Positions 4,209 to 44,248 of a DNA stretch of 64,000 bases are shown here, one piece after another. Location: contig NZ_JALAAD010000001.1 of assembly GCF_022984075.1 (NCBI RefSeq), positions 1,220,455-1,284,454 of the forward strand, in the 5' to 3' direction. Position 1 is the first letter of the stretch; every line of letters starts with the position of its first letter. A program made the position numbers and the translations under genes. The DNA comes from Synechococcus sp. C9. Its GTDB lineage: Bacteria; Cyanobacteriota; Cyanobacteriia; Gloeomargaritales; Gloeomargaritaceae. Under the pieces are notes generated by a model that worked only from the letters and a program-made list of their open reading frames with translations, ran no database searches and was not told the DNA's origin.

Positions 4209-4253
4209 CTAGTTGACCCGCTCCAACTTCATCAATTCGTCAATGGTCATACC
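4209..4253 (-). pseudogene. pstS: Displaced 3' end of pstS
   Basis: Reading the minus strand from the left target duplication gives GMTIDELMKLERVN followed by TAG. This joins in frame to the ...QNKVGMT end of PstS on the other side of the IS element. Removing the IS and one 9-bp duplicate restores a continuous pstS ending in these residues. This is the original C-terminal coding end, now separated by about 1.1 kb. Confidence 0.85.
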
Positions 4254-5340
4254 CAGTAGTGTTGAATGTCCGTAATAAAACTTAACATAAGGGGTCAGGG
4301 TTATCCTACGAGCGGCTCTACCCCTACGAGTTCCATGAAGCTACAGTGTCGGCCTATTTCTATTTGTAAATATCGCAACTTGTCAATCAATTCATAGGTC
4401 TTATTGTGACCTATCTCCAGCAATCTTAAAATTAGATAACCAATCAATACGGCATAAATCTGTAGCCGCACACCATTCTCATTCTTGGTAATGATTCTAT
4501 CCAATTTCAAGTGCATCTTTAGTGCCTTCCAAAGCAACTCAATTCGCCAGCGCAAACGATAGGCTGAACAAATCTCTTCATCCGTCATCGAAGTCACGTT
4601 AGTCGCTAGCCTATATTCTGTGTTTTCCTCTTCATTAAAAAATTGAATTACCCGAATATCCGGATTGTCAGGTTGCAACTTCATATTATTTCTAATCCGC
4701 ACAATAAACAATGTATTTCGTTTACACATTTCGTCCATTAATTTCCAGGAAGCAAAACCCCTATCCATGATACCAACGGCATTCTCAGGTATCGTCCCAA
4801 TCACAAGATGCCCAATTTTATGGTCATTAGTCTTTCCAAATATAATTGATTCGTCACCGATATTGCCCTCATTTATATCCAGGCCAAGCGTCAATTTTAC
4901 CTGCTTGTAGTGCCAGAATAATTTGCTGGTCAGGGTGATAATGGTAGAATCTAATGGGAATAAGTGCTTAAATTCACCTTGATGATGTTTAAGCCGTTTT
5001 TGCAGTTCTCTTAGGATCACTTGAAACGGCTCGGTGCTACGATGTTTACACGCCTTAGAAAACGTTGATATGTCAACTTTAAAATTGAGATGATTCAAGA
5101 GGAAGAATAAGCCCCGCATGGTGGCGACTCTTGCATCTAAAATGAAGTGCATCCATATGAGTACAAACAAGCGAGTATCCAAGACTGGATAGTCGTTTTT
5201 GGGAAGAAGGTTCAGCAAGGGCTTGATAAGTCCCTGAATTTGTCGTCTCATAAAAATACTGTTACTCGTGGTTTCTACCAATCTAAAATACCATTTTTAG
5301 TCTCCCTTTTCCACCCTTTCGTTAACATTCAACACTACTG
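4254..5340 (-). mobile_element. IS4-family insertion sequence, copy 1, inserted in pstS
   Basis: A 1087-bp element with perfect terminal inverted repeats beginning CAGTAGTGTTGAATGT and ending in the complement, flanked by a 9-bp target duplication GGTCATACC at 4245-4253 and 5341-5349. It carries one transposase gene. A second copy, apparently identical at the DNA level, lies at 38733-39819. Perfect target duplications and identical copies point to recent transposition. The IS4 assignment comes from transposase motifs and the 9-bp duplication. Confidence 0.95.
4301..5281 (-). CDS. IS4-family DDE transposase (copy 1)
   Basis: A 326-residue cut-and-paste transposase. Visible DDE elements are LDSTIITLT (first Asp), GIMDRGFAS (second Asp) and the YREK-like region YRLRWRIELLWKALK containing the catalytic Glu, typical of the IS4 family. 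The gene fills most of the element and has no frameshift, so it is probably active. The encoded protein is identical to that at 38780-39760. Its AT-rich composition contrasts with the surrounding pst genes. Confidence 0.95.
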   Translation of the reverse strand: MVETTSNSIFMRRQIQGLIKPLLNLLPKNDYPVLDTRLFVLIWMHFILDARVATMRGLFFLLNHLNFKVDISTFSKACKHRSTEPFQVILRELQKRLKHHQGEFKHLFPLDSTIITLTSKLFWHYKQVKLTLGLDINEGNIGDESIIFGKTNDHKIGHLVIGTIPENAVGIMDRGFASWKLMDEMCKRNTLFIVRIRNNMKLQPDNPDIRVIQFFNEEENTEYRLATNVTSMTDEEICSAYRLRWRIELLWKALKMHLKLDRIITKNENGVRLQIYAVLIGYLILRLLEIGHNKTYELIDKLRYLQIEIGRHCSFMELVGVEPLVG

Positions 5341-6318
5341 GGTCATACCCACTTTGTTCTGTCCACCAAACACGGTTCCGGTTTTCCCACGACGGATGTT
5401 CTCCAGGTTAGCCGCATAGGCCTTACTGGGTAAGGGAACGTAACCCGTGGGCGGTACCAATTTGCTGGCCTGACGCTGGTAAAATTCCACAAATTCTCGC
5501 ACTTCAGGGCGCTTGAGAGCTTCAGAGTTCACATAGATGAAAATGGGACGAGATAAGGGGTTGTAGGAGCCATCTTCCACCGATTTGCGGGAAGGAGCCA
5601 CCGCTCTTCCTTGGGCATTGACGATGGGTACCGCCTTCAACCGCTTTTTGTTTTCTTCGTAGTAGGCAAACCCAAAGAAGCCCAGGGCATTCTGATCGGT
5701 AGCGACCCCTTGCACCAGCACGTTGTCATCTTCACTGGCGGTAAAGTCCCCCCGGCTGGACTTGGATTTACCCACAATTGCCTCGGTGAAGTAGTCAAAC
5801 GTCCCGGAATCCGTACCGGCTCCAAACAACTTCAGGGGACGGTTCGGCCAGGCAGGATTTACCTGATTCCAAGTTCTAATTTTCCCCTGTGCCGCCGGTT
5901 CCCACATGGTCTTCAATTCAGCCACAGTCATCTGTTTAACCCAGTCGTTCCGGGGGTTGACCACCACGCTCAAGGCATCAAAGGCCACGGGGAGTTCCAC
6001 GTAGGAAATATTTTTGCTCCGGCAGATTTCCATCTCTTTCATCAGGATGGGACGGGAAGCATTGGAAATGTCGGTTTCCCCATTACAGAACTTTTTGAAG
6101 CCACCGCCGGTACCGGAAACCCCCACGGTTACCTGCACCTGGCCTTTTTTGGCCTTTTGGAATTCTTCCGCCACCGCTTCCGTAACCGGGAACACGGTAC
6201 TGGAGCCATCCACCTTCACTACCGGCCGATTTTGGGCGATCACCTGACCCGCACCAGCCAAACCAGCCGTCAGGGCGGCAACGGCAGTAAGGGCAAAAAA
6301 CTTGTGAGTCGTACGCAT
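5335..6318 (-). CDS. pstS: Phosphate-binding protein PstS, C terminus altered by IS insertion
   Basis: A 327-residue periplasmic phosphate-binding protein that feeds PstCA. It has a signal peptide ([19 protein letters not shown]...AQN) and the phosphate-binding motifs [18 protein letters not shown] and [17 protein letters not shown] ribosome site precedes the ATG. The last codons run into the IS end, whose CAGTAG supplies Gln-stop, so the native last eleven residues (IDELMKLERVN) are replaced by one Gln. The core fold should be intact, so the protein may still work. The larger effect may be polarity on pstC and pstA. Confidence 0.93.
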
Positions 6319-20564: not shown

Positions 20565-20681
20565 TACAGTCTTTTAAGTGCTTATGGGATACAGTTGAAC
20601 CCCACTTGCCGTGAGTCAATTATTCTGAGCCTTGAGAATGATGGAGGCTTTTTGTATCCTTTAATTGATAAATAGACTGTA
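20565..20681. repeat. R3 hairpin element, copy 1
   Basis: 117 bp bounded by TACAGTCTTTT and AATAGACTGTA (inverted). A nested inner inverted repeat is GGATACA/TGTATCC, so the element can fold into a long interrupted hairpin. Copy 2 is at 31342-31464 and a left half is at 35873-35914. It carries no coding sequence. Confidence 0.75.
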
Positions 20682-20904: not shown

Positions 20905-23900
20905 ATGAAGGGCAAGCATTTTGTAGGGTGGGCGTTGGCGGCGAGTGTTTTAGTGGGGGTGCCGGTGGGCATATATCCGTCCCAACCCGTGTTGGCACAA
21001 TCATTTGCACTGCAAGAAGCTGACCGGCTAAATGAATTGGGAATGGAACAATATCGAAAAGCTCAATATGCTCAAGCTCTGGAGTCATTTCAGCGCAGTT
21101 TGGCGATAAGGGAACAAGCCCTGGGTGCCAACCACCCGGATGTAGCTACTGCCCTCAACAACTTGGCGTTTTTGTATGAAGCCCAAGGGCAATACAGTAA
21201 GGCGGAACCGTTGTACCAGCGCAGTTTGGCGATTTTGGAACAAGCCCTGGGTGCCAACCACCCGGATGTGGCTGTGTCCCTCCACAACTTGGCGGGGTTG
21301 TATCGCTCCCAAGGGCAATACAGTAAGGCGGAACCGTTGTACCAGCGCAGTTTGGCGATCAGGGAACAAGCCCTGGGTGCCAACCACCCGGATGTGGCTG
21401 TGTCCCTCAACAACTTGGCGGTGTTGTATCGCTCCCAAGGGCAATACAGTAAGGCGGAACCGTTGGTCCAGCGCAGTTTGGCGATTTGGGAACAAGCCCT
21501 GGGTGCCAACCACCCGGATGTAGCTACTGCCCTCAACAACTTGGCGGGGTTGTATGAAGCCCAAGGGCAATACAGTAAGGCGGAACCGTTGTACCAGCGC
21601 AGTTTGGCGATTTGGGAACAAGCCCTGGGTGCCAACCACCCCAATGTAGCTACTGCCCTCAACAACTTGGCGGGGTTGTATCGCTCCCAAGGGCAATACA
21701 GTAAGGCGGAACCGTTGTACCAGCGCAGTTTGGCGATTTTGGAACAAGCCCTGGGTGCCAACCACCCCAATGTAGCTACTGCCCTCAACAACTTGGCGGG
21801 GTTGTATCGCTCCCAAGGGCAATACAGTAAGGCGGAACCGTTGTACCAGCGCAGTTTGGCGATTTGGGAACAAGCCCTGGGTGCCAACCACCCGGATGTG
21901 GCATCATCCCTCAACAACTTGGCGGTGTTGTATGAAGCCCAAGGGCAATACAGTAAGGCGGAACCGTTGTACCAGCGCAGTTTGGCGATCAGGGAACAAG
22001 CCCTGGGTGCCAACCACCCGGATGTGGCTGCGTCCCTCAACAACTTGGCGGCGTTGTATCGCTCCCAAGGGCAATACAGTAAGGCGGAACCGTTGTACCA
22101 GCGCAGTTTAGCGATTTTGGAACAAGCCCTGGGTGCCAACCACCCCAATGTAGCTACTGCCCTCAACAACTTGGCGAATTTGTACCAACGGCAAGGGCAA
22201 TACAGTAAGGCGGAACCGTTGGTCCAGCGCAGTTTGGCGATTTGGGAACAAGCCCTGGGTGCCAACCACCCGGATGTGGCTGTGTCCCTCAACAACTTGG
22301 CGGTGTTGTATGAAGCCCAAGGGCAATACAGTAAGGCGGAACCGTTGTACCAGCGCAGTTTGGCGATTTGGGAACAAGCCCTGGGTGCCAACCACCCGGA
22401 TGTGGCTAGGTCCCTCAACAACTTGGCGGGGTTGTATTGGAGCCAAAATCAAACAGAACCAGCCTTGATCCGTTTGGCACGGGCGTTAGACATTGAAGAA
22501 ACCAACCTGGCACAAAACTTGGTCATCGGCTCGGAAGAGGACAAACGTGCGTACCTCAAGACCTTTTCTGGCTCAACTCATGCAGCCATTTCGTTTCACC
22601 TGCAATTTGCTCCCACCAACCCCCAAGCGGCTCGTCTGGCTCTGACCACGATTCTGCGCCGCAAAGGACGGGTACTCGATGCCCTCAGCCAAAACTTGAA
22701 TCGCTTGCGCCAACAACTCAGCCCTGCTGACCAGGAACGGCTCACCCGCCTGTCCGCCCTGCGCACTCAAGTCGCTCAAATCGCCTTCAACCCCAACCCC
22801 ACCGACCAGCAACGTCAGCAATTGCAACTTTTGAACACCCAAGCGGAACAAATTGAAGCGGAACTCAACCGGAGCAGTAGCGCCTTTGCCCAAACCACTC
22901 AAAAAGTCACCCTGGAAGCCGTTCAAAAAGCCATCCCTGCCAATGCCGCTTTGGTCGAGTTTATCGAGTACCAACCCTTCAATCCCAAAGCACCCCAAGG
23001 TCAACGTTGGGGTTCCCCCCGCTATGCGGTCTATGTTCTCACCGCTACGGGTGAACCCCGGTTTGCGGATTTAGGCAGTGCCAGTGAGATAGATGCCTTG
23101 GTGAGCCAGTACTACAATGTGATCCGTGATCCTAGGCTTCCCCGTGAGCCATTGCGGAATCTTGATGCCAAAATCATGGCACCCGTGCGGCAATGGGTGG
23201 GTAACAATGTTAACCATCTGCTTATCGCCCCCGACGGTCAACTCAACCTGGTGTCCTTCGCCGCCTTAGTGGACGAAAAAAACCGATACCTCGTTGAAAA
23301 CTATTTAATTACCTACCTGACTTCCGGGCGGGATTTACTGCGCTTGCAGAGTACCGCTCCCAAAGCCAATCCCCCCTTGATTGTCGCCGATCCCGTTTTT
23401 GACAAACCCGGCAGTAATCCAGTGCAAATTGCCAGTGCCGACCGAGGTAATTTACGTTCTGTTGATTTGACTACCTTGAAATTTGGTGCCTTACCTGGCA
23501 CCGCTATTGAAGGGGAAACCATTACCAAGTTACTTCCTAATAGCCGGTTGTTTACCCAAGCCCAGGCAACAGAAGCGGTAGTAAAAACCAGTAGCAACCC
23601 CCGGATATTGCACCTGGCGACCCACGGCTTTTTCCTCAAATCTGCCCCCACCACCCAAGCCAAGGATGGCAGTCGGAATTTACCGAATGAGAACCCACTG
23701 TTGCGCTCCGGGTTAGCCTTTTCCGGGTTCAACGTGCGGCAGGGGGGCGGAGACGACGGGGTGTTGACCGCTTTAGAAATCACCGGCATGGACTTGCGGG
23801 GCACCCAGTTGGTTGTGTTATCCGCCTGTGAGACGGGATTGGGGGATGTGCAGAGTGGGGAAGGGGTGTACGGATTGCGGCGGGCGTTTACATTAGCAGG

Positions 23901-24114
23901 GGCGCAGTCCCAAGTGATGACCCTGTGGCGGGTGGATGACGAAGCGACCAAAGACTTGATGGTGAACTATTACCAGCGGCTGAGCAAAGGGGAAGGCAGG
24001 GGGGAAGCCCTGCGGCAAGCCCAATTGACCATGCTGAGAAGCCCGAATTATGCCCATCCCAAATACTGGTCAGGGATGATTCCCGTCGGAGATTGGCGGG
24101 GGATGAGTCCTTAG
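20905..24114 (+). CDS. Secreted TPR-CHAT caspase-like protein
   Basis: 1069 residues. A signal peptide (MKGKHFVGWALAASVLVGVP...VLAQ) is followed by eleven near-identical 42-residue kinesin-light-chain-type TPR units (consensus YSKAEPLYQRSLAIxEQALG, ANHPDVAxxLNNLAxLY). A coiled-coil-rich linker (about 530-680) follows, then a C-terminal CHAT protease domain with the His in LHLATHGFF and the Cys in LSACETGLGD, and a terminal SPNYAHPKYWSGMIPVGDW motif. CHAT proteins are caspase-like proteases. The signal peptide implies action outside the cytoplasm. An R3 element lies 224 bp upstream. Confidence 0.93.
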   Translation: MKGKHFVGWALAASVLVGVPVGIYPSQPVLAQSFALQEADRLNELGMEQYRKAQYAQALESFQRSLAIREQALGANHPDVATALNNLAFLYEAQGQYSKAEPLYQRSLAILEQALGANHPDVAVSLHNLAGLYRSQGQYSKAEPLYQRSLAIREQALGANHPDVAVSLNNLAVLYRSQGQYSKAEPLVQRSLAIWEQALGANHPDVATALNNLAGLYEAQGQYSKAEPLYQRSLAIWEQALGANHPNVATALNNLAGLYRSQGQYSKAEPLYQRSLAILEQALGANHPNVATALNNLAGLYRSQGQYSKAEPLYQRSLAIWEQALGANHPDVASSLNNLAVLYEAQGQYSKAEPLYQRSLAIREQALGANHPDVAASLNNLAALYRSQGQYSKAEPLYQRSLAILEQALGANHPNVATALNNLANLYQRQGQYSKAEPLVQRSLAIWEQALGANHPDVAVSLNNLAVLYEAQGQYSKAEPLYQRSLAIWEQALGANHPDVARSLNNLAGLYWSQNQTEPALIRLARALDIEETNLAQNLVIGSEEDKRAYLKTFSGSTHAAISFHLQFAPTNPQAARLALTTILRRKGRVLDALSQNLNRLRQQLSPADQERLTRLSALRTQVAQIAFNPNPTDQQRQQLQLLNTQAEQIEAELNRSSSAFAQTTQKVTLEAVQKAIPANAALVEFIEYQPFNPKAPQGQRWGSPRYAVYVLTATGEPRFADLGSASEIDALVSQYYNVIRDPRLPREPLRNLDAKIMAPVRQWVGNNVNHLLIAPDGQLNLVSFAALVDEKNRYLVENYLITYLTSGRDLLRLQSTAPKANPPLIVADPVFDKPGSNPVQIASADRGNLRSVDLTTLKFGALPGTAIEGETITKLLPNSRLFTQAQATEAVVKTSSNPRILHLATHGFFLKSAPTTQAKDGSRNLPNENPLLRSGLAFSGFNVRQGGGDDGVLTALEITGMDLRGTQLVVLSACETGLGDVQSGEGVYGLRRAFTLAGAQSQVMTLWRVDDEATKDLMVNYYQRLSKGEGRGEALRQAQLTMLRSPNYAHPKYWSGMIPVGDWRGMSP
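21067..22452 (+). repeat. Eleven tandem 126-bp TPR-coding repeats
   Basis: Eleven uninterrupted 126-bp units within the CHAT gene. Units differ mainly at a few positions (Leu/Arg/Trp after SLAI; Asp/Asn in NHPDVA; EA/RS/QR before QGQ). DNA identity between units is very high, so copy number can change by slippage or recombination, and assembly across it needs long reads. Confidence 0.97.
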
Positions 24115-24432: not shown

Positions 24433-24828
24433 GTGAGCGCCGCGGTGGATCGGGAAATTACGGCCCTGGGCATCGAACACGACGAACAGGGCAACCGCGC
24501 CAAAGCCTATTTGTATTGCTTAGAAACCCGCTGCCCCCATACCGGCTGGATGGTGCCCCTCGCCCCCAGTTGGATTGTTTCTAAACAAAGAAACGTCATC
24601 GCCAAGTTAATTCCCAATTACGAACAAAAACGTTTTGAAATTGAAGAAGTGGATAGCGATGAAGTGATGGCGCACCTGCGGGATTTGGTGCCGGATTATC
24701 ACCATCGCCGGGAAGATTTAATGGTGTTTTGTCAATACATTACTCAGAAACGAAAACAGCGCTTTCCCGAAGAGGCTTCAGCCGCTGGGATATTGCTTGC
24801 CCTCATTAGAAATGAACGCTTGGGGTAA
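24433..24828 (+). pseudogene. Fragment of a COG1743/DUF1156-type DNA methylase
   Basis: 131 residues from GTG. The stretch GIEHDEQGNRAKAYLYCLET, RCPHTGWMVPLAPSWIVSK and AKLIPNYEQKRFEIE resembles an internal, zinc-ribbon-containing portion of large adenine-specific DNA methylases (COG1743), which are about 900 residues. Catalytic methylase motifs (DPPY, SAM-binding) are absent. The final 50 residues are unlike the methylase. It is most likely a remnant of a lost modification gene, next to a helicase of a kind that accompanies such methylases. Confidence 0.65.
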
Positions 24829-24833
24829 AGAGT

Positions 24834-25202
24834 TCACTTCTGAATAGGGAGAATGCGCACCCTAGAGTTGAGATAATCTATGCTCATCAAAGCACCACTT
24901 TCCAAGTAGTCCTGAAATTCTCGCAATGCTTCTATCACCACAGTGCCTATTTTGTTTGGCAATAGGTCTTGGGTTCTCAGTTGAATAACACTAGGGGCAT
25001 TTGCTTGAGTTGCTGCTAAGATTGCTCCAAAATCCAGATCATTGGTAAAAACTACATACCCCTGCTCTTTTGCCCATTGCAAAATTGTGGAATCACTTGC
25101 CCTTGGATCTCCTACACTTGACCAATGTAGAGCCTCTATGTTCTGGTCAGCAAACATTTGAATCCAATCAGGGGATAAGTTCATATCCACTAAAATTTTC
25201 AT
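24834..25202 (-). CDS. DUF5615 PIN-like toxin
   Basis: 122 residues beginning MKILVDMNLSPDW, with acidic residues in VDMN, ASDSTILQWA and FTNDLDFGAILA that match the Mut7-C/DUF5615 PIN-like nuclease pattern (Asp in the first strand, the NDxDF motif). These proteins act as predicted RNase toxins with a DUF433 antitoxin. Its ATG overlaps the stop of the DUF433 gene (ATGA), so they are coupled. It points opposite to the flanking methylase fragment and helicase. Confidence 0.85.
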   Translation of the reverse strand: MKILVDMNLSPDWIQMFADQNIEALHWSSVGDPRASDSTILQWAKEQGYVVFTNDLDFGAILAATQANAPSVIQLRTQDLLPNKIGTVVIEALREFQDYLESGALMSIDYLNSRVRILPIQK

Positions 25203-25435
25203 CGTACAATGAGAGGCAATTCTACTTCCTCAGCCCGCCATGCCGCATAAGCCAAAGCTTCATAAATATCCTCCAATTCCAAATAAGGATAGGCTTTTAA
25301 GATGTCCTCTGGAGAATGCCCTGCCGCTATCAGCCCGACAATTGTTCCAACCGTAACCCGTAAGCCTCTAATACAGGGCTTACCACCCATCACGGCTGGG
25401 TCGAAGGTAATTCGGGATAAGTGGACTGGATACAT
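25199..25435 (-). CDS. DUF433 antitoxin
   Basis: 78 residues with the DUF433 signature: ITFDPAVMGGKPCIRGLRVT, TVGTIVGLIAAGHSPEDIL and YPYLELEDIYEALAYAAWR. This is a winged-helix/HTH-type antitoxin (VapB45-like) that neutralises and autoregulates with DUF5615. It is the first gene of the pair, as usual for type II toxin-antitoxin systems. Confidence 0.9.
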   Translation of the reverse strand: MYPVHLSRITFDPAVMGGKPCIRGLRVTVGTIVGLIAAGHSPEDILKAYPYLELEDIYEALAYAAWRAEEVELPLIVR

Positions 25436-25634
25436 TTGCTTTGCGTGCTGTCTTTGTTTAATATACTAGAAACTCAAAGTGCCAAAAAGTTTCCTTTGAT
25501 AATCCTTAGCTTTTGGGCAAATTATTCCAGTTATAATACAGTTAACTGATTAATGGGAATGTTGCTATGCCAGAACTTGGTCTAAATGAAGCTCAACTGA
25601 AAGAGTTATCGCTAATTTTCCCTGATCTATAGCC

Positions 25635-28346
25635 ATGTCCAGCACTGCTTTTCTGCACCGTTTCAGTTCCCGCCAACAACGCCTCAGTCATGTCTTTCTC
25701 AAAGACCGTTTGGCAAAGGCACGAACCTATAAGCGCATTGCCGGTTATTTTCGCTCTTCCATTTTTGAATTAGTTACTGAAGAAATTGCTCATCTGGAAC
25801 AGGTGCAAATTGTCTGTAACAGTGACTTAGACCCCCACGATATTGCCATTGGTAAGGCTTCTCGACAAACCCGTGAAATGGCACTCAAAGAAAAATGGAA
25901 CCAAGAAACCGGAGAATTAATCACCAGCCTGTTGCAACGTCCCCGCTACCGTCAACTCTATGAGATTCTCAAAAGCGGCAAAGTCGAAGTGCGAGTGGTT
26001 TCAGCCGTAGATGCCCCCTTTCTCCACGGCAAAGCAGGTGTGATTGAGGCGAGGGACGGCACCAAATCCGCTTTTATCGGTAGCCTCAACGAAACCCGAC
26101 AGGGATGGCAAGAACACTATGAAATTGTCTGGGAAGACCAGTCGCCGGAGGGGGTCGCTTGGGTGGAGGCAGAGTTTCAGTATCTGTGGGAACGGAGTGT
26201 TCCTCTGCCTGAAGCGATTGTGGAAGAGGTAGGGCGACTCTCCCGCAAAGTGGAGGTATCTCTGGGAGATTTACAGCCCCTTGATGTTCCCAGAGCCGCA
26301 ATGGTAGAAGCACCTCTCTATCGTCGGGGTGAAGTTCTTAAACCGTGGCAACAATCGTTTGTGGAAATGTTCCTCGAACACCGAGAGTTGTATGGTGTAG
26401 TGCGACTCATTCTGGCAGATGAGGTGGGGCTGGGTAAAACCTTGTCTTTAGGGGTTGCGGCCATGGTGGCGTGCCTTTTGGCAGATGGCCCGGCTCTGAT
26501 TCTTTGTCCGGCTACCCTCTGTCAGCAGTGGCAAGTGGAACTTAAAGATAAGCTGGGCATTCCCTCGGCTGTTTGGCTTTCTAACCGCAAGGTATGGCAA
26601 GATGCCAACGGTCATATTATTAAAACCAAGGGAGCTGAAGATATTGGCCGTTGCCCCTATCAAATCGGCATTGTTTCCACAGGTTTGATCGTTCACAACG
26701 CCCCCGAAGCCCAATTCCTTTTGGAGCGACGCTTTGGGACTATTGTGTTGGATGAAGCTCATCGTGCTCGTTGTAGTCGCGGAGTCACGGTAAAAGAGCC
26801 GCAACCCAACAACCTTTTGAAGTTTATGGATAGAGCGGCCACCCAGTCCAAGCACGTCCTTTTGGGTACAGCTACCCCCATCCAAACCCATGTTGAGGAA
26901 CTGTGGGATCTGCTGGGAGTGCTCAACAGCGGTGCCGAGCATGTGTTGGGACGACGGCATCAGCAGTTGTGGCAGCAGACGCAAAGGATCCTGCCCATCT
27001 TGACAGGACAACAAGCAGTTACCGATGAATACTTTGCCTGGAACTTGCTCCGCAATCCCCTGCCGCCGTCCGTTGATGATCCCCTGTTTGACCACATCCG
27101 CAGTGACCTGAAACTCTCAAACAATCAATTCTTTACAGATAAACCCCTAACAGAATTAGAAGACTTTACCCGTCAAGAACTGCAAGATGCCTTAGCAGAG
27201 CGTCGGCAAGGACTGAGTTTTTTCCAACGACATAACCCCATTCTTCGCCATACCGTACTGCGTAAACGTGCCACGCTGGAGGAATTGGGTTTGCTGGAGC
27301 GGATTGCGGTTGACATCTGGCCGAGCGAGGGAGAACAATTGCCCATGTTCTCTGGACTAGGATTGCTCACCTCTCCTGAATTTGATGTCGCCTATGAAGC
27401 CGCCCAAGATTTTGCCACAGCCTTGCGCCAGCGTACCCAATCTGCTGGGTTTATGAAAACCATGATGCAAAGCCGGATTTGCTCCAGTATTGCCAGCGGC
27501 CTATCTACGGCTCAGAGACTGCTGGAAAAACGGCATTTTTTTGAGGAGGAAGAAGAAGATACCTGGTTGTTAGACAATCGCCCAGAGATTTTGGAGGCAG
27601 AATGCACCCATTTGGAACGCATTGTTAACACTTTGAGCCAAAAAAACACCGATCCCAAACTCGATGCCGTCCTCTATTTTCTCCAAGAACGGCACTGGTT
27701 GAATTTAGGGTGCATTATTTTCAGTCAGTATTTTGACACTGCCCATTGGGTCGCAACTAGCCTGACCGAGCGTCTGCCCCAGGAAAGTGTCGCCCTCTAT
27801 GCCGGTGTTGGCAAATCCGGTTTGTTTTTTGCGGGGGAATGGCGTAGTGTCGAGCGAGAAGACATCAAAAAAGCCGTGCGCGAGCGCACCATTCGGTTGG
27901 TGGTCGCCACCGATGCCGCCTGTGAAGGGCTGAACCTGCAAACCTTGGGTACGTTGATCAATGTCGATCTGCCCTGGAACCCCTCCCGCCTGGAGCAACG
28001 CATCGGACGGATCAAGCGCTTTGGACAAACCCGTGAGCGGGTGGATATGCTCAACCTCGTGTACCACGGCACCCGCGACGAAAAGGTATATGAGGTGCTT
28101 TCCCAGCGGATGAAAGACCGTTACGACTTGTTTGGTTCCCTACCCGATACCATCGAAGATGAATGGATTGAAGATATTGAAACCCTAGAGACTAAATTAC
28201 AAGAGTTTACAGAACGAAAGAAGCGTGCCAATGCTTTCGATTTGCGCTATGCCAGCACCGTAGAACCCAAAGGTTCCAAATGGGAAACCTGCGAAAAGGT
28301 ATTGTCCCGCCGAGATATTGTGGAACGGCTGTCGGAGGGATGGTAA
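25635..28346 (+). CDS. PLD-nuclease/SNF2 helicase fusion
   Basis: 903 residues. The N-terminal 200 residues form a phospholipase D-like nuclease half (HGKAGVIEARDGTKSAFIG, then SLNETRQG: the HxK...SxN motif). A SNF2-type SF2 helicase follows: ADEVGLGKTLSLG (Walker A), VLDEAHRARC (DEAH), LLGTATPIQT (motif III), FSQYFDTAHWV and ATDAACEGLNLQ with WNPSRLEQRIGRIKRFGQ (motif VI). Such helicases occur in phage-defence loci beside DNA methylases. A tiny frame at 25567-25632 (MPELGLNEAQLKELS...) immediately upstream may be a remnant or leader. The gene itself appears intact. Confidence 0.9.
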   Translation: MSSTAFLHRFSSRQQRLSHVFLKDRLAKARTYKRIAGYFRSSIFELVTEEIAHLEQVQIVCNSDLDPHDIAIGKASRQTREMALKEKWNQETGELITSLLQRPRYRQLYEILKSGKVEVRVVSAVDAPFLHGKAGVIEARDGTKSAFIGSLNETRQGWQEHYEIVWEDQSPEGVAWVEAEFQYLWERSVPLPEAIVEEVGRLSRKVEVSLGDLQPLDVPRAAMVEAPLYRRGEVLKPWQQSFVEMFLEHRELYGVVRLILADEVGLGKTLSLGVAAMVACLLADGPALILCPATLCQQWQVELKDKLGIPSAVWLSNRKVWQDANGHIIKTKGAEDIGRCPYQIGIVSTGLIVHNAPEAQFLLERRFGTIVLDEAHRARCSRGVTVKEPQPNNLLKFMDRAATQSKHVLLGTATPIQTHVEELWDLLGVLNSGAEHVLGRRHQQLWQQTQRILPILTGQQAVTDEYFAWNLLRNPLPPSVDDPLFDHIRSDLKLSNNQFFTDKPLTELEDFTRQELQDALAERRQGLSFFQRHNPILRHTVLRKRATLEELGLLERIAVDIWPSEGEQLPMFSGLGLLTSPEFDVAYEAAQDFATALRQRTQSAGFMKTMMQSRICSSIASGLSTAQRLLEKRHFFEEEEEDTWLLDNRPEILEAECTHLERIVNTLSQKNTDPKLDAVLYFLQERHWLNLGCIIFSQYFDTAHWVATSLTERLPQESVALYAGVGKSGLFFAGEWRSVEREDIKKAVRERTIRLVVATDAACEGLNLQTLGTLINVDLPWNPSRLEQRIGRIKRFGQTRERVDMLNLVYHGTRDEKVYEVLSQRMKDRYDLFGSLPDTIEDEWIEDIETLETKLQEFTERKKRANAFDLRYASTVEPKGSKWETCEKVLSRRDIVERLSEGW

Positions 28347-36122: not shown

Positions 36123-37445
36123 TCAACGCACATAGCGTAAACTTTCGGTTTGGCGGGTGAATAAATCCGTGAAGATGCTGAGTACCGTACGGTTGCGGGT
36201 GCGGATATTCGCTGTCACACTCATCCCCGACTGTAGGGGCACCACCCGGTCTTTTACCCGCATGGTTTGGGATGATAATTCAATCCGAGCCGGAAATCGG
36301 AAAAAATTGTAGGTTTGGTCAGGGGGTAAGGCATCAGAACCAATGCGGACTAATTTCCCTTTCACATCCCCAAATTCACTAAACGGAAAGGAATCAATCC
36401 GCACATCCGCTTCCATTCCCGGCTCTACAAAACCAATATCCCGATTGGTAATAAAGACTTCCGCCACCAAATAGTTGGTTGGCACAATTTTCACAATGGG
36501 ACGGGTATCATTCACGTTGGCGACAAATCCGGGGGTATGCGCCTGCAATTCAAAAATAATTCCTGTCTCCGGGGCCCGCACTTCTTGATATTGCCTTGCC
36601 ACTTCCGCTTGTTCCAGTTGACGGGTTAGTTCAGAAATGCGCCGTTCATTTTCGTTGATCCGCAACAGCAAATCCCGCCGGGTGGTGGCGATGGTATTAT
36701 TCATTTCTTCCGTGGCTTGGCGGATGCTACTTTCCAAACGGGGTTTTTCTTCCTGGAGACGTTTAATTTCCCCTTCCTGCCGAAGCACTTCCTGTTGCAA
36801 ACGGACGTACTGTACCCGGGCCAAACCCCCCTCTTCCATCAGAGATTTCAAGTCCTTCAGCAGTTCCTGATTCAGGGCCAGGACTTCCTGATTGCTGGCG
36901 AGGAGAATGTCATTTTGCCGCAGTTGATCCTGGAACTGACGGATGCGCTCTTTCGCCGCCGTGACCCGACTGGCAAATTCCCGGTGACTTTCGCTCAAGG
37001 TGGCCTGCTGTTCGGGACTCAATTCGGCAACCTGGAGGGTGCCATTCAGCAAGGCCCGATTGATACGATTTTCCGCAAGCAACGTGTCCCGCACCCGCCG
37101 ACTCGCTTCCAGTTCCGCCTGATTCACCCGGGGGTCAAGGGTAAACAGCACCTGCCCTTTGTCAACCCGCTGACCCTCTTTCACATAAACATCCCGCACC
37201 ACACCGGTGAGGGGCACCCGCACCTCCTTGACCTGCCCCGCTGGTTCCAAATCCCCCTGGGCCTGTACCGCCTGTTCGAGAGGGGCATAGGCCGCCCACG
37301 TAATCAACCCCGCCGCACTCGCCACCAAGGACCACAAAATCACATGGGACCAAAGACCGGTTTGCCGCAAAACCACCGGTTGATCAAATTCCGGCTTGGC
37401 GGGAGGGTTGGAAACCGAAGGGGTGATCTGCGGATTCGTGGCCAT
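36123..37445 (-). CDS. HlyD-family type 1 secretion adaptor
   Basis: 440 residues. A short cytosolic N terminus is followed by one membrane segment (VILWSLVASAAGLITWAAYA), a lipoyl-like half motif (VKEVRVPLTGVVRDVYVKEG), a long coiled coil (about 120-290) and the second lipoyl/beta-barrel half (EVRAPETGIIFELQAHTPG) ending in RTRNRTVLSIFTDLF. This is the periplasmic membrane-fusion protein of type 1 secretion, linking the exporter ATPase to a TolC-like channel. It lies 9 bp after the exporter gene, in the same operon. No TolC homologue is in the window. Confidence 0.93.
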   Translation of the reverse strand: MATNPQITPSVSNPPAKPEFDQPVVLRQTGLWSHVILWSLVASAAGLITWAAYAPLEQAVQAQGDLEPAGQVKEVRVPLTGVVRDVYVKEGQRVDKGQVLFTLDPRVNQAELEASRRVRDTLLAENRINRALLNGTLQVAELSPEQQATLSESHREFASRVTAAKERIRQFQDQLRQNDILLASNQEVLALNQELLKDLKSLMEEGGLARVQYVRLQQEVLRQEGEIKRLQEEKPRLESSIRQATEEMNNTIATTRRDLLLRINENERRISELTRQLEQAEVARQYQEVRAPETGIIFELQAHTPGFVANVNDTRPIVKIVPTNYLVAEVFITNRDIGFVEPGMEADVRIDSFPFSEFGDVKGKLVRIGSDALPPDQTYNFFRFPARIELSSQTMRVKDRVVPLQSGMSVTANIRTRNRTVLSIFTDLFTRQTESLRYVR

Positions 37446-37454
37446 AAATATCCC

Positions 37455-38732
37455 CTACATTTGTTTTTGATACAGCGAGTAATAGCGGCCTTTCAATTTT
37501 AACAGTTGGTCGTGGGTGCCATCCTCCACAATTCTACCCTGATCCATCAGAATAATCCGGTCGGCTTGACGGATGGTGCTGAGGCGATGGGTGACAAACA
37601 GGACGGTACGCCCCTGTAATGCCTTGGCTAAATTCCGACACACCTGAAATTCCGTATCGTAATCCAGGGCACTGGTGGCCTCATCCAAAATCAGTAAACG
37701 GGGGTGTTGCACCAAGACCCGGGCGAGGGCAATCCGTTGCCGCTGGCCCCCCGACAGGGCGCTCCCCCGTTCCCCAACCCGGGTATTGTACCCCTGGGGC
37801 AAACCCATAATAAAATCATGGGCACAGGCGATTTTGGCCGCTTCAATAATCTCCTCTACCGCAATATCCGGGCTGGCTTGGGCGATATTGTCCTGCACGG
37901 TGCCATCAAATAAAAGCGGTTCCTGGAGTACCATGCCAATCTGTTGCCGCAGGGAATATAAATCCACCTTGCCAATGTCGTAATTATCAATAAAAATCCG
38001 TCCCGATTCCGGGGCATACAACCGGGCAATCAGTTTGGTTAAGGTACTTTTCCCCGCCCCGCTCTGCCCCACAATCCCCACAAAAGTGCCGGGGGCAATA
38101 TCCAGGGAAACGTTCACCAATTGCAGGGGGCCATCGGGATTAAACCGGAAATTCACCTCTTCAAAACGAATGGCACCCACAATGGGAGGCATGGGAATAT
38201 TACGCCGGTCATTTTCATCCACTTCCTGGGGCGTATCCACAATATCCGCCAAACGTTCCAAGGAGAGGGCCGTTTCCTGGAAATTCTGCCAGAGCTGTAC
38301 CAGGCGCAACAGGGGGCTGGTGGTATAGCTGGCAATAATCCGAAAGGCGATCAATTGCCCTAGGGTTAACTGCCCTTTGAGCACCAAAAATGCCCCCACC
38401 CATAGCAACAACAGCCCCGACATTTGATTCAAAAACTGACTAATGGAACTCGCCGTCGTGGAGGTGACCACGGTTTGAAAACCGGCACTGATATAGCGGG
38501 CATAGCGGGACTGCCATTGCCAACGGGAATTGAGTTCTAAATTTTGCGCTTTCACGGTTTGAATCCCGGACAGCACTTCCACAAAATAAGCCTGGGTTTC
38601 CGCATTGCGTTCGGCTTTGGTGCGAAGCTGTTTGCGAATAATCGGGGCGGCTAAAAGGGTTAAGAGGGCGAACAGGGGGACGGTGGCCAGGGCGATGAGG
38701 GTCAACAACCAACTGTAAATCACCATCACCAC
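37455..38732 (-). pseudogene. HlyB-like exporter, 3' part cut off by the IS
   Basis: The C-terminal part (about 425 residues) of the type 1 secretion ABC transporter. It covers the last membrane helices (VIYSWLLTLIALATVPLFAL) and the ATPase domain: GIVGQSGAGKSTLTKLI (Walker A), LSGGQRQRIALARVLVQ (signature), RLLILDEATSALD (Walker B) and FVTHRLSTI (H-loop). Any translation product starting at the internal GTG/ATG would lack most of the membrane domain. It joins in frame to 39820-41493 when the IS and one target duplicate are removed. Confidence 0.92.
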
Positions 38733-39819
38733 CAGTAGTGTTGAATGTCCGTAATAAAACTTAACATAAGGGGTCAGGGTTATCCTACGAGCGGCTCTAC
38801 CCCTACGAGTTCCATGAAGCTACAGTGTCGGCCTATTTCTATTTGTAAATATCGCAACTTGTCAATCAATTCATAGGTCTTATTGTGACCTATCTCCAGC
38901 AATCTTAAAATTAGATAACCAATCAATACGGCATAAATCTGTAGCCGCACACCATTCTCATTCTTGGTAATGATTCTATCCAATTTCAAGTGCATCTTTA
39001 GTGCCTTCCAAAGCAACTCAATTCGCCAGCGCAAACGATAGGCTGAACAAATCTCTTCATCCGTCATCGAAGTCACGTTAGTCGCTAGCCTATATTCTGT
39101 GTTTTCCTCTTCATTAAAAAATTGAATTACCCGAATATCCGGATTGTCAGGTTGCAACTTCATATTATTTCTAATCCGCACAATAAACAATGTATTTCGT
39201 TTACACATTTCGTCCATTAATTTCCAGGAAGCAAAACCCCTATCCATGATACCAACGGCATTCTCAGGTATCGTCCCAATCACAAGATGCCCAATTTTAT
39301 GGTCATTAGTCTTTCCAAATATAATTGATTCGTCACCGATATTGCCCTCATTTATATCCAGGCCAAGCGTCAATTTTACCTGCTTGTAGTGCCAGAATAA
39401 TTTGCTGGTCAGGGTGATAATGGTAGAATCTAATGGGAATAAGTGCTTAAATTCACCTTGATGATGTTTAAGCCGTTTTTGCAGTTCTCTTAGGATCACT
39501 TGAAACGGCTCGGTGCTACGATGTTTACACGCCTTAGAAAACGTTGATATGTCAACTTTAAAATTGAGATGATTCAAGAGGAAGAATAAGCCCCGCATGG
39601 TGGCGACTCTTGCATCTAAAATGAAGTGCATCCATATGAGTACAAACAAGCGAGTATCCAAGACTGGATAGTCGTTTTTGGGAAGAAGGTTCAGCAAGGG
39701 CTTGATAAGTCCCTGAATTTGTCGTCTCATAAAAATACTGTTACTCGTGGTTTCTACCAATCTAAAATACCATTTTTAGTCTCCCTTTTCCACCCTTTCG
39801 TTAACATTCAACACTACTG
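38733..39819 (-). mobile_element. IS4-family insertion sequence, copy 2, inserted in the exporter gene
   Basis: 1087 bp, the same ends as copy 1, flanked by a perfect 9-bp target duplication CATCACCAC at 38724-38732 and 39820-39828. It has the same orientation as copy 1 and, as there, its CAGTAG end supplies Gln-stop to the interrupted gene. Confidence 0.95.
38780..39760 (-). CDS. IS4-family DDE transposase (copy 2)
   Basis: 326 residues, identical in sequence to the product of 4301-5281, with the same DDE elements (LDSTIITLT, IMDRGFAS, YRLRWRIELLWKALK). It is intact and presumably active. Being in the same direction as the secretion operon, it could drive downstream transcription into the exporter 3' part and hlyD. 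Confidence 0.95.
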   Translation of the reverse strand: MVETTSNSIFMRRQIQGLIKPLLNLLPKNDYPVLDTRLFVLIWMHFILDARVATMRGLFFLLNHLNFKVDISTFSKACKHRSTEPFQVILRELQKRLKHHQGEFKHLFPLDSTIITLTSKLFWHYKQVKLTLGLDINEGNIGDESIIFGKTNDHKIGHLVIGTIPENAVGIMDRGFASWKLMDEMCKRNTLFIVRIRNNMKLQPDNPDIRVIQFFNEEENTEYRLATNVTSMTDEEICSAYRLRWRIELLWKALKMHLKLDRIITKNENGVRLQIYAVLIGYLILRLLEIGHNKTYELIDKLRYLQIEIGRHCSFMELVGVEPLVG

Positions 39820-41493
39820 CATCACCACAATATAAACCACCGAAAATACCGCATCCAAAACCACGGTCAGGGCCGTACCCGTGAGGAATTGGCGGATATG
39901 TTCTAGTTCGTTCACCCGGGTGGAGAGTTCCCCCACTGGCCGCCGTTCGTAATACCGCAAGGGCAGGCGCAGGAGGTGGTCAATCACCTCGGAACCCAAG
40001 GCCATATCAATCCGATTGGTGGTATCCACAAACAAATAGGTACGAATGGCCCCCAAAACCGCTTCGGCCACCGCCACCCCAATCAACAAAATGCCCAAAA
40101 CATTCAGGGTACTGACGCTATTTTGGATCAAAACCTTATCAATGATGATCTGAATCATCAACGGGTTCGCCAGACTAAAAAGCTGGACAAAAAATGAGGC
40201 GATAAATACTTCCAACAAAACCCGCCGGTACCGCCAAATCGAAGGCCAAAACCAACTCAACCCAAACCGCACCTGGGGCGTATGAGCCGTCTTTTTCAGG
40301 GTTAACAGGGCAACCTCATCGCCCCACGTCGGGAGCAATTCCGCCGGTCGGCGCCGCAGAATCCCCTGGTCGGGCACCCCCATCACAATTTCCTGGGGAG
40401 AAATGCGGAACAGCACCACCAATTTCCCCTGCCATTCCACCAACGCCGGGCCTTCCGCCCTGGTCAACAGTTGGCTGGGCAATCTGAGCAATTGGGTATC
40501 CATCCCCATCAACTGGGCAACCGCCCCCGCCAGTTGCAGATTCACGCCCCCTGTCTGCCGACTGCGATTTTCCAAGACCCGCCGCAGTAATTCCCGGCGA
40601 AAGGGGATATTGAGTAGTTTGGCCACCATCTGAAAACAGGCCAGGGCCCCCCCCAGTTCCCCTTCCCCCCGGAAATAGGGGTAGTCCTGGGTCGTTGACT
40701 TGGCATCCGTAGCCTGGAAACTCACCGCCGGGGCATAGGGAATCTCCGCCGCCGACTGGGGCAAGGCTGGACTGACCTCGGCAGGGGCTGGTGATGGGGT
40801 TGGTGATGGGGGAATGACGGAGCCGATCACCCCCAACAGCCGGGTGTAGCCCTGTACCCGCAGGTTGGCACCCTCCAGATTCAGCCAACTGCCCTGGTGA
40901 TGGGGGCCCACCTGTCCCAAACTCACCCACCAGCGACCATCGGGAATATCGGGCAAGACCAGCGGGCCGGGGGCGAGGGGGATCAACTTCACTTCCAACT
41001 GGGCGACCCAATCCTTGAGGGGTAGGGGGACGGACTGCTCCGCCCTTTGCCCCAACTCCGCCACAATCATTTCCGCAATTTCCACCGCCGTTGGTTTTTG
41101 ATTGAAATAGTTTTGCCAACTGGGTTGGGTCTTCCACAGTTCTTGGAATAAATCAGCGGGAATCGTCAGTCCAATGGATTCATCCGTCGCAATCACGGTT
41201 TCACAGGTGCGTCCCCGCAACACCCCCAGCCAGCCGACCACATCCCCGGGTTGAAAGCGTTGGATCGTCACCAATCTCTGGGTGCGGGGGTCCAAAAAGA
41301 GGGAACGGGCAGACCCTTGGTACAGGAAAAGAACGTGGTCAGCGATTTGGTTCGCCGCCATCATGGGTTGCCCCATGCGATACTTCCACGCCTGGACTTG
41401 GCTGAGAAACTGTTGCTGGGCCGCCGTTGGCAAGTCTTGCACGAAGGGCTGGCTGAGCAAAAAGGTTTGTAGGGGGGATTGGGTGGCGGTCAT
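39820..41493 (-). pseudogene. HlyB-like exporter, 5' part (cNMP-binding, C39-like and membrane domains)
   Basis: The N-terminal 558 residues of an exporter that would be about 980 residues intact. Residues about 10-140 form a cyclic-nucleotide-binding-like domain (VLFLYQGSARSLFLDP, FQPGDVVGWLGVLRG). Residues about 250-400 form a peptidase C39-like domain lacking the usual Cys-Gly and active-site His (GGALACFQMV, WQGKLVVLFRIS). Membrane helices follow (FIASFFVQLFSLANPLMIQI), ending ...VVYIVVM at the IS. ATG 41493 overlaps the PpiC stop (ATGA). The frame gains only Gln-stop from the IS. Confidence 0.92.
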
Positions 41494-42233
41494 ACCTGTA
41501 CTCCGGGGGCAGAAGGATTGATCTGATTTTCGAGCCAATTGTGAAACAACTCATCTAATAATTGTTGCCGGGTGGCCTCATCCAGTTGGGCGGGGAGCAA
41601 TTGTTCTAAGCGTACCACCACCCACCAGTTGGCGAGTTGCACCGGCGGCCACACCTGACCCGGTTGGCTGACCGAGAGGAGTTTGGTCAAACTGGGATGG
41701 AGCTTGCCCAGGGGCATCGGCCCAATCAGTCCCCCGGTACTCGCCTCCGGGCCCTGGGAAAATTGCTTGGCCGCCTCCGCAAAGGACTGCTCCCCCTCGC
41801 TGATGCGAAAGTACAATTCCTGGGCGATGCCGGGTTGATGGGTGCGGATCAGGGAATACACCACCCGGTCAAGCTGGGCTTTGCGCTTGAGAAAATAGCT
41901 TTCCACCTCTGCCCCCCAGGTGACCTCCTTGAAGCGTTGTAACCGCTGGGGACGGGTCGCCACTACCACCACCTGTTCCGGGGTGAGATGATGCCGTTTC
42001 AGCCACGCCTGTTGCTGTTCCGGGGTCGTCACCTGCTGTTGTTGCCAAAATTCCTGCACCCATTGCGCCTGTTCTTCCGGTGTGCATTCCACCCCCCGGA
42101 GCGCCTGTTCCGTGACAATGCCCTGGATCAACGGCACCAATAACTGATGTTCCGCTAGGGAGCGCACCAACTCCGCCGCCGTCAAGACCTGCTCGCCCAC
42201 CTGCAAAATCCCAGCCGTTTCCGCCACAGTCAC
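41490..42233 (-). CDS. PpiC/SurA-type peptidyl-prolyl isomerase
   Basis: 247 residues. An N-terminal helical SurA-like region (QALRGVECTPEEQAQWVQEF, LKRHHLTPEQVV) is followed by a parvulin domain (AQELYFRISEGEQSFAEAAK, QFSQGPEASTGGLIGPMPLG, VQLANWWVVVRLEQLLP). There is no obvious signal peptide, so it probably acts in the cytosol on the export cargo. Such isomerases are regular neighbours of cyanobacterial HlyB/HlyD genes. Its stop overlaps the exporter start, so it is the first gene of the secretion operon. Confidence 0.88.
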   Translation of the reverse strand: MTVAETAGILQVGEQVLTAAELVRSLAEHQLLVPLIQGIVTEQALRGVECTPEEQAQWVQEFWQQQQVTTPEQQQAWLKRHHLTPEQVVVVATRPQRLQRFKEVTWGAEVESYFLKRKAQLDRVVYSLIRTHQPGIAQELYFRISEGEQSFAEAAKQFSQGPEASTGGLIGPMPLGKLHPSLTKLLSVSQPGQVWPPVQLANWWVVVRLEQLLPAQLDEATRQQLLDELFHNWLENQINPSAPGVQV

Positions 42234-43913: not shown

Positions 43914-44248
43914 GCCTCGGGGAAATATCGCCAAAAAATCGCTCCTGCGTAGATTAGTTTTATAGTAAGATAAGCCCTATATGTTATGAGTATGCGGTTA
44001 TATATTGAACTATGTCCCTATAGGGGTAAGCCCGGTTGCTGTACAAGTTGCGTGGGGTGACGGTCAATTTGGGTATGTTAATCTGATAACCTGCCAAGGG
44101 GGTATAAGCAGAGGTTCACATAAATTAATGGATGAGAAAACGAGTGATAACGAAAACTTAATTGTGGGGGGGTTGCATAACGAAAATAAATCGCTTATGA
44201 TTGGCGTTGACCATGTAAACTCGAATTTTTTTGAGGAGAGTAACGGAA
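43914..44248. promoter_or_regulatory. Leader and promoter region of the RTX gene
   Basis: 335 AT-rich bp. A TATAGTAAGATAA stretch near 43961 could hold a -10 element. A GAGGAG ribosome site at 44233-44238 precedes the RTX ATG by about 10 bases. A short open frame at 44005-44274 overlaps the RTX start out of frame and is not convincing. Confidence 0.4.

Follow-up and report, generated by a model that had tools for sequence, protein, structure and literature searches.

TPR, ANK and WD40 repeats of high internal conservation occur in fungal NOD-like receptors; according to the available sections of two papers (PMC4986451, PMC12222747), groove-type change takes place there on a preserved scaffold and is rapid both in residues and in length. 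Craspase is a known example of proteolysis by a TPR-CHAT protein under the control of a ligand, as far as the accessible part of its literature goes. HetF of Anabaena is also a cyanobacterial protein with CHAT and TPR domains, and conflict sensors diversified by DGRs likewise link a variable sensor to CHAT or other effectors, one target being predicted to be secreted (available excerpts of PMC8406250 and PMC10907252). A search of the open-access literature returned, among its top matches, no report of secreted CHAT proteins with homogenised arrays of TPRs.

We have analyzed a stretch of 64,000 nucleotides from Synechococcus sp. C9 (hereafter the window), which belongs to a genome of 2.96 Mb in four contigs (G000) and encodes a TPR-CHAT protein with a highly uniform repeat array. 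Near-identical units, copy-number variation, concerted evolution and variation at interaction-surface codons are features which this protein has in common with the fungal receptors, as these are described in the excerpts of PMC4986451 and PMC12222747. It differs from them in being bacterial and predicted to be exported, in lacking NACHT/NB-ARC, and in having its effector, a CHAT protease, at the C-terminus of the same chain; furthermore, copy numbers are compared here between species only, with one genome per species, and selection is suggested. Unlike the window protein, HetF has its CHAT region at residues 1-555 as well as a transmembrane domain and acts in the divisome (PMC8406250, available excerpt), and the DGR sensors vary by reverse transcription into CLec domains, whereas the window protein would vary by TPR repeat shuffling (PMC10907252, available excerpt).

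Architecture and predicted export of the TPR-CHAT protein

The gene product consists of a signal-like N-terminus followed by a TPR superhelix, a linker and a CHAT protease (Table 1). Pfam families TPR_12 and TPR_10 matched 11 stretches each, CHAT (PF12770) scored 293.8 bits at a curated cut-off of 24, and a NACHT or NB-ARC module was absent among the best 25 of 26 Pfam families. An AlphaFold2 model (mean pLDDT 83.5, pTM 0.74) contains two helices of 16 and 19 residues per repeat unit; the helices at its N-terminus comprise residues 27-51 and 55-73. Residues His907 and Cys975, which we take from knowledge of the CHAT family to be catalytic, are both present, Cys975 being the sole cysteine of the protein; model confidence is low directly past it (residues 978-981). 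Judged from the sequence, the catalytic pair is intact, and the protein is presumed to be proteolytically active.

Table 1. Features of the TPR-CHAT gene; positions refer to the window.
Feature	Position	Strand	Basis
TPR-CHAT gene, 1069 aa	20905..24114, stop codon included	+	Open reading frame; Pfam; AlphaFold2 model
Predicted Sec signal sequence, residues 1-32 (...PVLA/QS)	20905..21000	+	Hydrophobicity heuristic, not SignalP
N-terminal capping helices, residues 33-62, outside the repeat	21001..21090	+	Model; 34% identity
Repeat units 1-10, near-identical, 126 bp each	21091..22350	+	TRF; anchors; pairwise identities
Unit 11, end cap; first half unit-like, second half diverged	22351..22476	+	67-75% identity to other units
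Linker connecting the TPR superhelix to CHAT, largely helical up to residue 676	22477..23145	+	Model helices 517-676, partly of low confidence
CHAT (caspase-like) protease domain, residues 748-1063	23146..24093	+	PF12770, E 2e-87
Codon of His907 (ATHGFF), presumed catalytic	23623..23625	+	Invariant in 23 of 23 aligned sequences
Codon of Cys975 (SACETG), presumed catalytic	23827..23829	+	Invariant in 23 of 23 aligned sequences

The 126-bp period, the TPR_10 and TPR_12 matches and a match to KLC1 (2.5e-60) identify the units as 42-residue TPRs of the kinesin light chain type. Indeed, kinesin light chains were the best matches of the TPR part among PDB sequences (7ai4, 2.5e-60; 4y6w, 3.7e-23); their TPRs have the same 42-residue period but are not protease fusions. 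The fold of the whole protein was matched by separase over 840 residues (Z 22.9, 15% identity), which also occupied the first Foldseek row. Separase, the eukaryotic cohesin protease, similarly combines a helical superhelix with a caspase-like protease, but is larger than the window protein. TPR-like repeats of 42 residues are reportedly the subject of a paper by Marold from 2015.

The N-terminus was scored by a home-made hydrophobicity heuristic. The most hydrophobic 19-mer is found at residues 6-24 (mean 1.87) and is followed by VLA-QS, whereas the best value past residue 40 is 1.24. The VLAQ motif is also present in the orthologues from two relatives of the same genus, G002 and G004. The heuristic was positive for 24 of 31 CHAT frames, the window's included, as compared to 2 of 620 internal control pieces. 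The TPR-CHAT protein is thus probably secreted, with predicted Sec export; the extracytoplasmic location proposed in the original prediction is upheld as a prediction by the signal-sequence heuristic only.

Uniformity and descent of the repeat units

TRF reported a repeat of period 126 at 21091-22437 with 10.7 copies (91% matches, score 2136), and anchor sequences recurred 11 times at a spacing of exactly 126 bp. Mean identity among units 1-10 was 0.913 for nucleotides (range 0.833-0.992) and 0.878 for amino acids; for all 11 units the means were 0.879 and 0.846, respectively, and the array phased as 21067-22452 gave 0.888. The array has a sharp edge, as the 126 nt in front of unit 1 share only 34% identity with that unit. 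An array of eleven near-identical 126-bp units had been predicted; the array is real, but with the second half of unit 11 diverged, "ten and a half" describes it better. High internal conservation is defined in the available part of Dyrka 2014 (PMC4986451) as >85% identity over at least 100 aa. Units 1-10 exceed this value over 420 aa, while inclusion of unit 11 brings the mean slightly below it; the amino-acid means of the orthologous arrays minus their last unit were 0.857 (G002) and 0.839 (G004).

Three orthologues of the same genus, from the window genome, G002 and G004 (one genome per species), were comparatively analyzed. The last, half-diverged unit of each array was left out so that 27 units were compared. 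Copy number differs between the three species, namely 11 units in G000, 7 in G002 and 12 in G004. Within arrays, pS amounted to 0.117 (G000), 0.168 (G002) and 0.278 (G004), as compared to 0.308-0.516 between arrays; pS of the linker and CHAT region between orthologues was 0.385-0.488, the comparison with G004 covering only the 289-293 codons ahead of a stretch of its CHAT part for which no sequence was available, and which lies downstream of its array. The nearest unit belonged to the same genome for 27 of 27 units, a value reached in none of 10000 label shuffles. With 2 label changes, a tree of the units reached the lowest number possible for three genomes (mean after shuffling, 12.6). In this tree the G004 units formed one well-supported group and the G002 units another, the latter emerging among the G000 units with low support. 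Furthermore, the framework residue at unit position 36 is genome-specific: S in G000, Q in G002 and A in G004. Given that units of one array differ less at silent sites than units of different species, and that each is closest to a unit of its own genome, the arrays evolve in concert.

Incompatible site pairs were found in all three arrays (51 of 78 in G000, 7 of 15 in G002, 84 of 136 in G004). In G000, six-base cassettes occur as ACTGCC or GTGTCC at codons 20-21 and, 24 bases apart, as GAAGCC or CGCTCC at codons 30-31, in all four combinations. The incompatible pairs and the combined cassettes show that units have been reassorted. A search with two units revealed no donor array in the rest of the genome; outside the gene it detected only the single unit of a broken paralogue on contig C2, so exchange is most simply placed within the gene. 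Unit DNA was not found in the viral contigs searched. Taken together, concerted evolution of the array by intragenic recombination is very probable from the sequence comparison. The recent expansion or gene conversion that had been predicted agrees well with these data: pS within the window array contrasts with 0.31-0.46 to the units of the other two species and with the values for linker and CHAT, in line with the own-genome neighbours and the reassorted cassettes.

Variation at contact positions and in related arrays

According to the available part of Magliery and Regan 2005 (PMC1261162), TPR positions 2, 5, 9, 12, 13, 33 and 34 are the most variable ones and lie on the concave, ligand-binding face. 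The register was taken from the Pfam TPR_1 match, in which residues 333-364 align with model positions 1-32, so that TPR positions 2, 5, 9, 12 and 13 correspond to unit positions 20, 23, 27, 30 and 31; positions 33 and 34, which have no plain counterpart in the 42-residue unit, were left out. On the structural model, the five positions lie on one face of helix A, and 0.8% of random helix-A sets were as clustered.

Variation among the units is located mainly at these canonical contact positions, a feature absent from the original prediction. In G000, 5 of 5 contact positions were variable in amino acid as compared to 4 of the 37 others (Fisher 0.00015), namely unit positions 7, 17, 21 and 42; the corresponding numbers were 5 of 5 and 5 of 37 in G002 (Fisher 0.0003). 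The effect was weaker in G004, with 4 of 5 and 12 of 37 (Fisher 0.061; entropy rank test 0.0027). Only 1 of 20000 random five-position sets matched the observed pN in all three arrays. At the five contact codons, pN/pS was 1.43 in G000, 2.26 in G002 and 1.31 in G004; at the remaining codons it was 0.35, 0.23 and 0.24, respectively. Among units 1-10 of G000, 27 of 42 codons are identical even at silent sites, whereas the contact codons differ.

Neutral simulations were run under four settings with 150 runs each. The fraction of runs with a pN/pS at least as high as observed was 0.027-0.140 for G000, 0.000-0.040 for G002 and 0.027-0.133 for G004. Because neutral runs partly reach the observed values, diversifying selection is suggested, not proven; on balance we lean slightly towards selection favouring diversity at the contact codons. 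Silent variation was raised at these codons as well (0.31 as compared to 0.09 elsewhere in G000), so that old variants which have persisted, or a mutation bias at these sites, may play a part. Silent changes clustered near variable codons only in G000 (0.030), but not in G002 (0.374) or G004 (0.497).

A survey of 53 scanned sources yielded 38 arrays of at least four units, 4 short runs and 11 sources without a match; in 28 of the 38 arrays the same frame also encodes CHAT. The sample is biased towards similar arrays, because its loci are those that matched the window protein best and because the three same-genus arrays served to construct the scanner. Mean identities within this sample ranged from 0.501 to 0.879, the window array being the most homogeneous with 0.879. 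Mean unit identity was at least 0.78 in 15 arrays, 12 of them outside the window's genus. Contact positions were more variable than the rest in all 38 arrays (p < 0.05 in 37), and since diverged, non-homogenised arrays are among them, this variability is a general TPR property. Among the 14 homogenised arrays (framework pS < 0.35), contact pN/pS exceeded 1 in 10, in three of these only just (1.01-1.03). A correlation across arrays between identity and entropy ratio was set aside, as it is partly built in.

In genus g29 of family f26, each of the 9 loci compared has six units with a within-array identity of 0.568, and for 53 of 54 units the nearest one occupies the same position in another genome. 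These nine loci were chosen from ten; L069, the one left out, is a gene of greater divergence and likewise has six units. Homogenised arrays occur in two other genera of f26 (L050, L053), so the regime changes within the family. Judged from the arrays, one protein family shows both a frozen and a shuffling regime: a constant repeat number with ordinary divergence, named in the original prediction as the case that would speak against it, is found in g29, but not in the window's genus.

Gene neighbourhood and candidate functions

Seven CHAT places were found in the window genome, the window gene counted. Among them, the broken TPR-CHAT paralogue on contig C2 (86.9 kb; L048 3817-5697, minus strand) contains exactly one unit and both a TGA and a TAA in frame; a single unit is what exchange between first and last unit would be expected to leave. 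G002 has a second TPR-CHAT copy (L046 7186-9892) with one full unit and part of another. It is broken off beside an insertion element like one in an ABC gene of the window, and its other end is truncated too. No close match to the window protein was found in three of six relatives of the same genus (G001, G005, G006), and a match in G003 was only 53% identical. Among the genomes of named relatives there were two matching loci, both in Gloeomargaritales cyanobacterium VI4D9.

In G002, the TPR-CHAT gene starts 85 bp past a ppiC-hlyB-hlyD operon. The window also contains a type I secretion operon (36123-42233, minus strand) encoding HlyD, an HlyB-type ABC transporter and PpiC, which is located 12 kb from the TPR-CHAT gene on the opposite strand. 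Its ABC gene is split at about 38732-39819 by an element with an IS4-family transposase, and window positions 4246-5343 match the same G002 insertion element at about 85%. An 800-aa RTX-type calcium-binding repeat protein encoded nearby (44231-46633, plus strand) is a plausible cargo of the operon. Type I secretion was dropped as a general partner of TPR-CHAT proteins, because a PpiC or HlyD match (E 1e-5) was found in none of 16 other TPR-CHAT neighbourhoods, two of which had weak ABC matches, nor in the G003 and G004 regions. No shared partner gene emerged when 10 neighbouring proteins from 7 regions were spot-checked. The expectation that substrates are encoded nearby was not borne out, as no shared neighbour was found in the neighbourhoods examined. 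Among the neighbours checked, TPR plus RTX-repeat proteins adjoin CHAT genes in G028 and G183.

Directly downstream of the TPR-CHAT gene lies an eroded defence island (24433-28346). Besides a DUF5615 gene, it contains a PLD-helicase of full length (PADLOC PLD_Helicase, E 0) and a 131-aa remnant that matches residues 247-315 of a 960-aa model of a DUF1156 anti-phage methyltransferase (2.3e-36). Dispersed short repeats, about 65-120 bp long, occur in the window at about 6873, 7561, 7716, 11911, 20466, 31213 and 57576. They are common to the window and G002, one lying upstream of the TPR-CHAT gene in the window and one just downstream of it in G002. Additionally, 117 bp at 20565-20681 are 100% identical to a stretch of contig C2, which also harbors an open frame (L012 11283-11963, plus strand) in which a unit of about 46 residues, RSRNLGYIRLSCLGKEQEHITILL..., is repeated in tandem in nearly identical copies.

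The explanation we favour, and consider rather probable, is that shuffling of the repeats renews the recognition groove of a TPR-CHAT protease predicted to be exported. The protease would be exported by Sec, and its superhelix of eleven units would form a concave groove that accommodates a peptide or protein as its ligand; CHAT would cut a substrate once the groove is engaged, or cut what the groove holds. Recombination between units in the gene, by unequal exchange and short gene conversion, would homogenise the array and at the same time add, remove and reorder units, while the ligand-contact codons of each unit would resist homogenisation. Groove specificity and length could thus change quickly, and the scaffold would not. 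Ligand binding by the superhelix, like export, proteolysis and selection for diversity, is what we infer. A role of the molecule as a recognition receptor in conflict or self/non-self discrimination, instead of a housekeeping adaptor, is put forward tentatively; its purpose might be defence, recognition of self or adjustment to a partner that changes. The more specific notion of an extracytoplasmic bacterial counterpart of the fungal recognition receptors, a one-chain periplasmic receptor-protease with protected contact codons that would renew its specificity through intragenic shuffling of TPR units, recognise phage, toxin, neighbour-cell or variable self proteins outside the cytoplasm and then cut its target, is speculative and rather improbable.

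As the foremost alternative, homogenisation might be purely mechanical, caused by slippage and unequal exchange, with contact positions varying under weak constraint in an ordinary envelope adaptor-protease of nearly neutral length. The contact-position variability in all 38 surveyed arrays, non-homogenised ones included, would fit this, as would the observed pN/pS being reached in up to 14% of neutral runs and the two broken copies in the genus, one of them down to a single unit. Identity of most codons at silent sites, in which the contact codons do not share, and a contact pN/pS above 1 in all three orthologues argue against it, and other exposed positions seem hardly to vary; we regard purely mechanical homogenisation as somewhat unlikely. 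The constancy of g29, with same-position neighbours and six units even at L069, would suit a stable housekeeping protease with a fixed ligand, the array of the window's genus being a recent, transient expansion without functional meaning. However, homogenisation is seen in all three orthologues of that genus, and the framework residue at position 36 differs among them, so that more than one homogenisation event is needed, and the uniform arrays outside the genus, including L050 and L053 of f26 itself, also oppose a single transient expansion; this account appears improbable.

An effector of the type III-E CRISPR-like (Craspase) kind is suggested by Csx29, which is among the best matches spanning TPR and CHAT (Z 26.6 over 575 residues) and likewise has a TPR superhelix followed by a CHAT protease, as described in the accessible Craspase literature. 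The window protein differs from Csx29 by its signal sequence and its KLC-like 42-residue repeats, and the sequence match is not significant (phmmer E 0.059). No RAMP gene lies within 500 kb; because the five RAMP-domain (PF03787) places, with frames of 264-639 aa, are more than 500 kb away from the gene, a Craspase component is extremely unlikely.

Under the favoured explanation of a groove renewed by shuffling, the array looks like a rapidly changeable recognition surface, and with its concerted evolution shown, it is more informative than originally supposed. Fast-evolving repeat receptors have been described for fungal NOD-like receptors inside the cell. A similar pattern is seen here in a predicted exported bacterial protease without an ATPase switch: a homogenised scaffold, variable contact codons and a changing copy number. 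Genus g29 with its six constant units, where this protein family appears frozen, can serve as a natural control. If the explanation is true, the locus would offer a simple single-gene system for how repeat shuffling creates specificity, and it would raise the question of which role a caspase-like protease plays in the envelope of a cyanobacterium.
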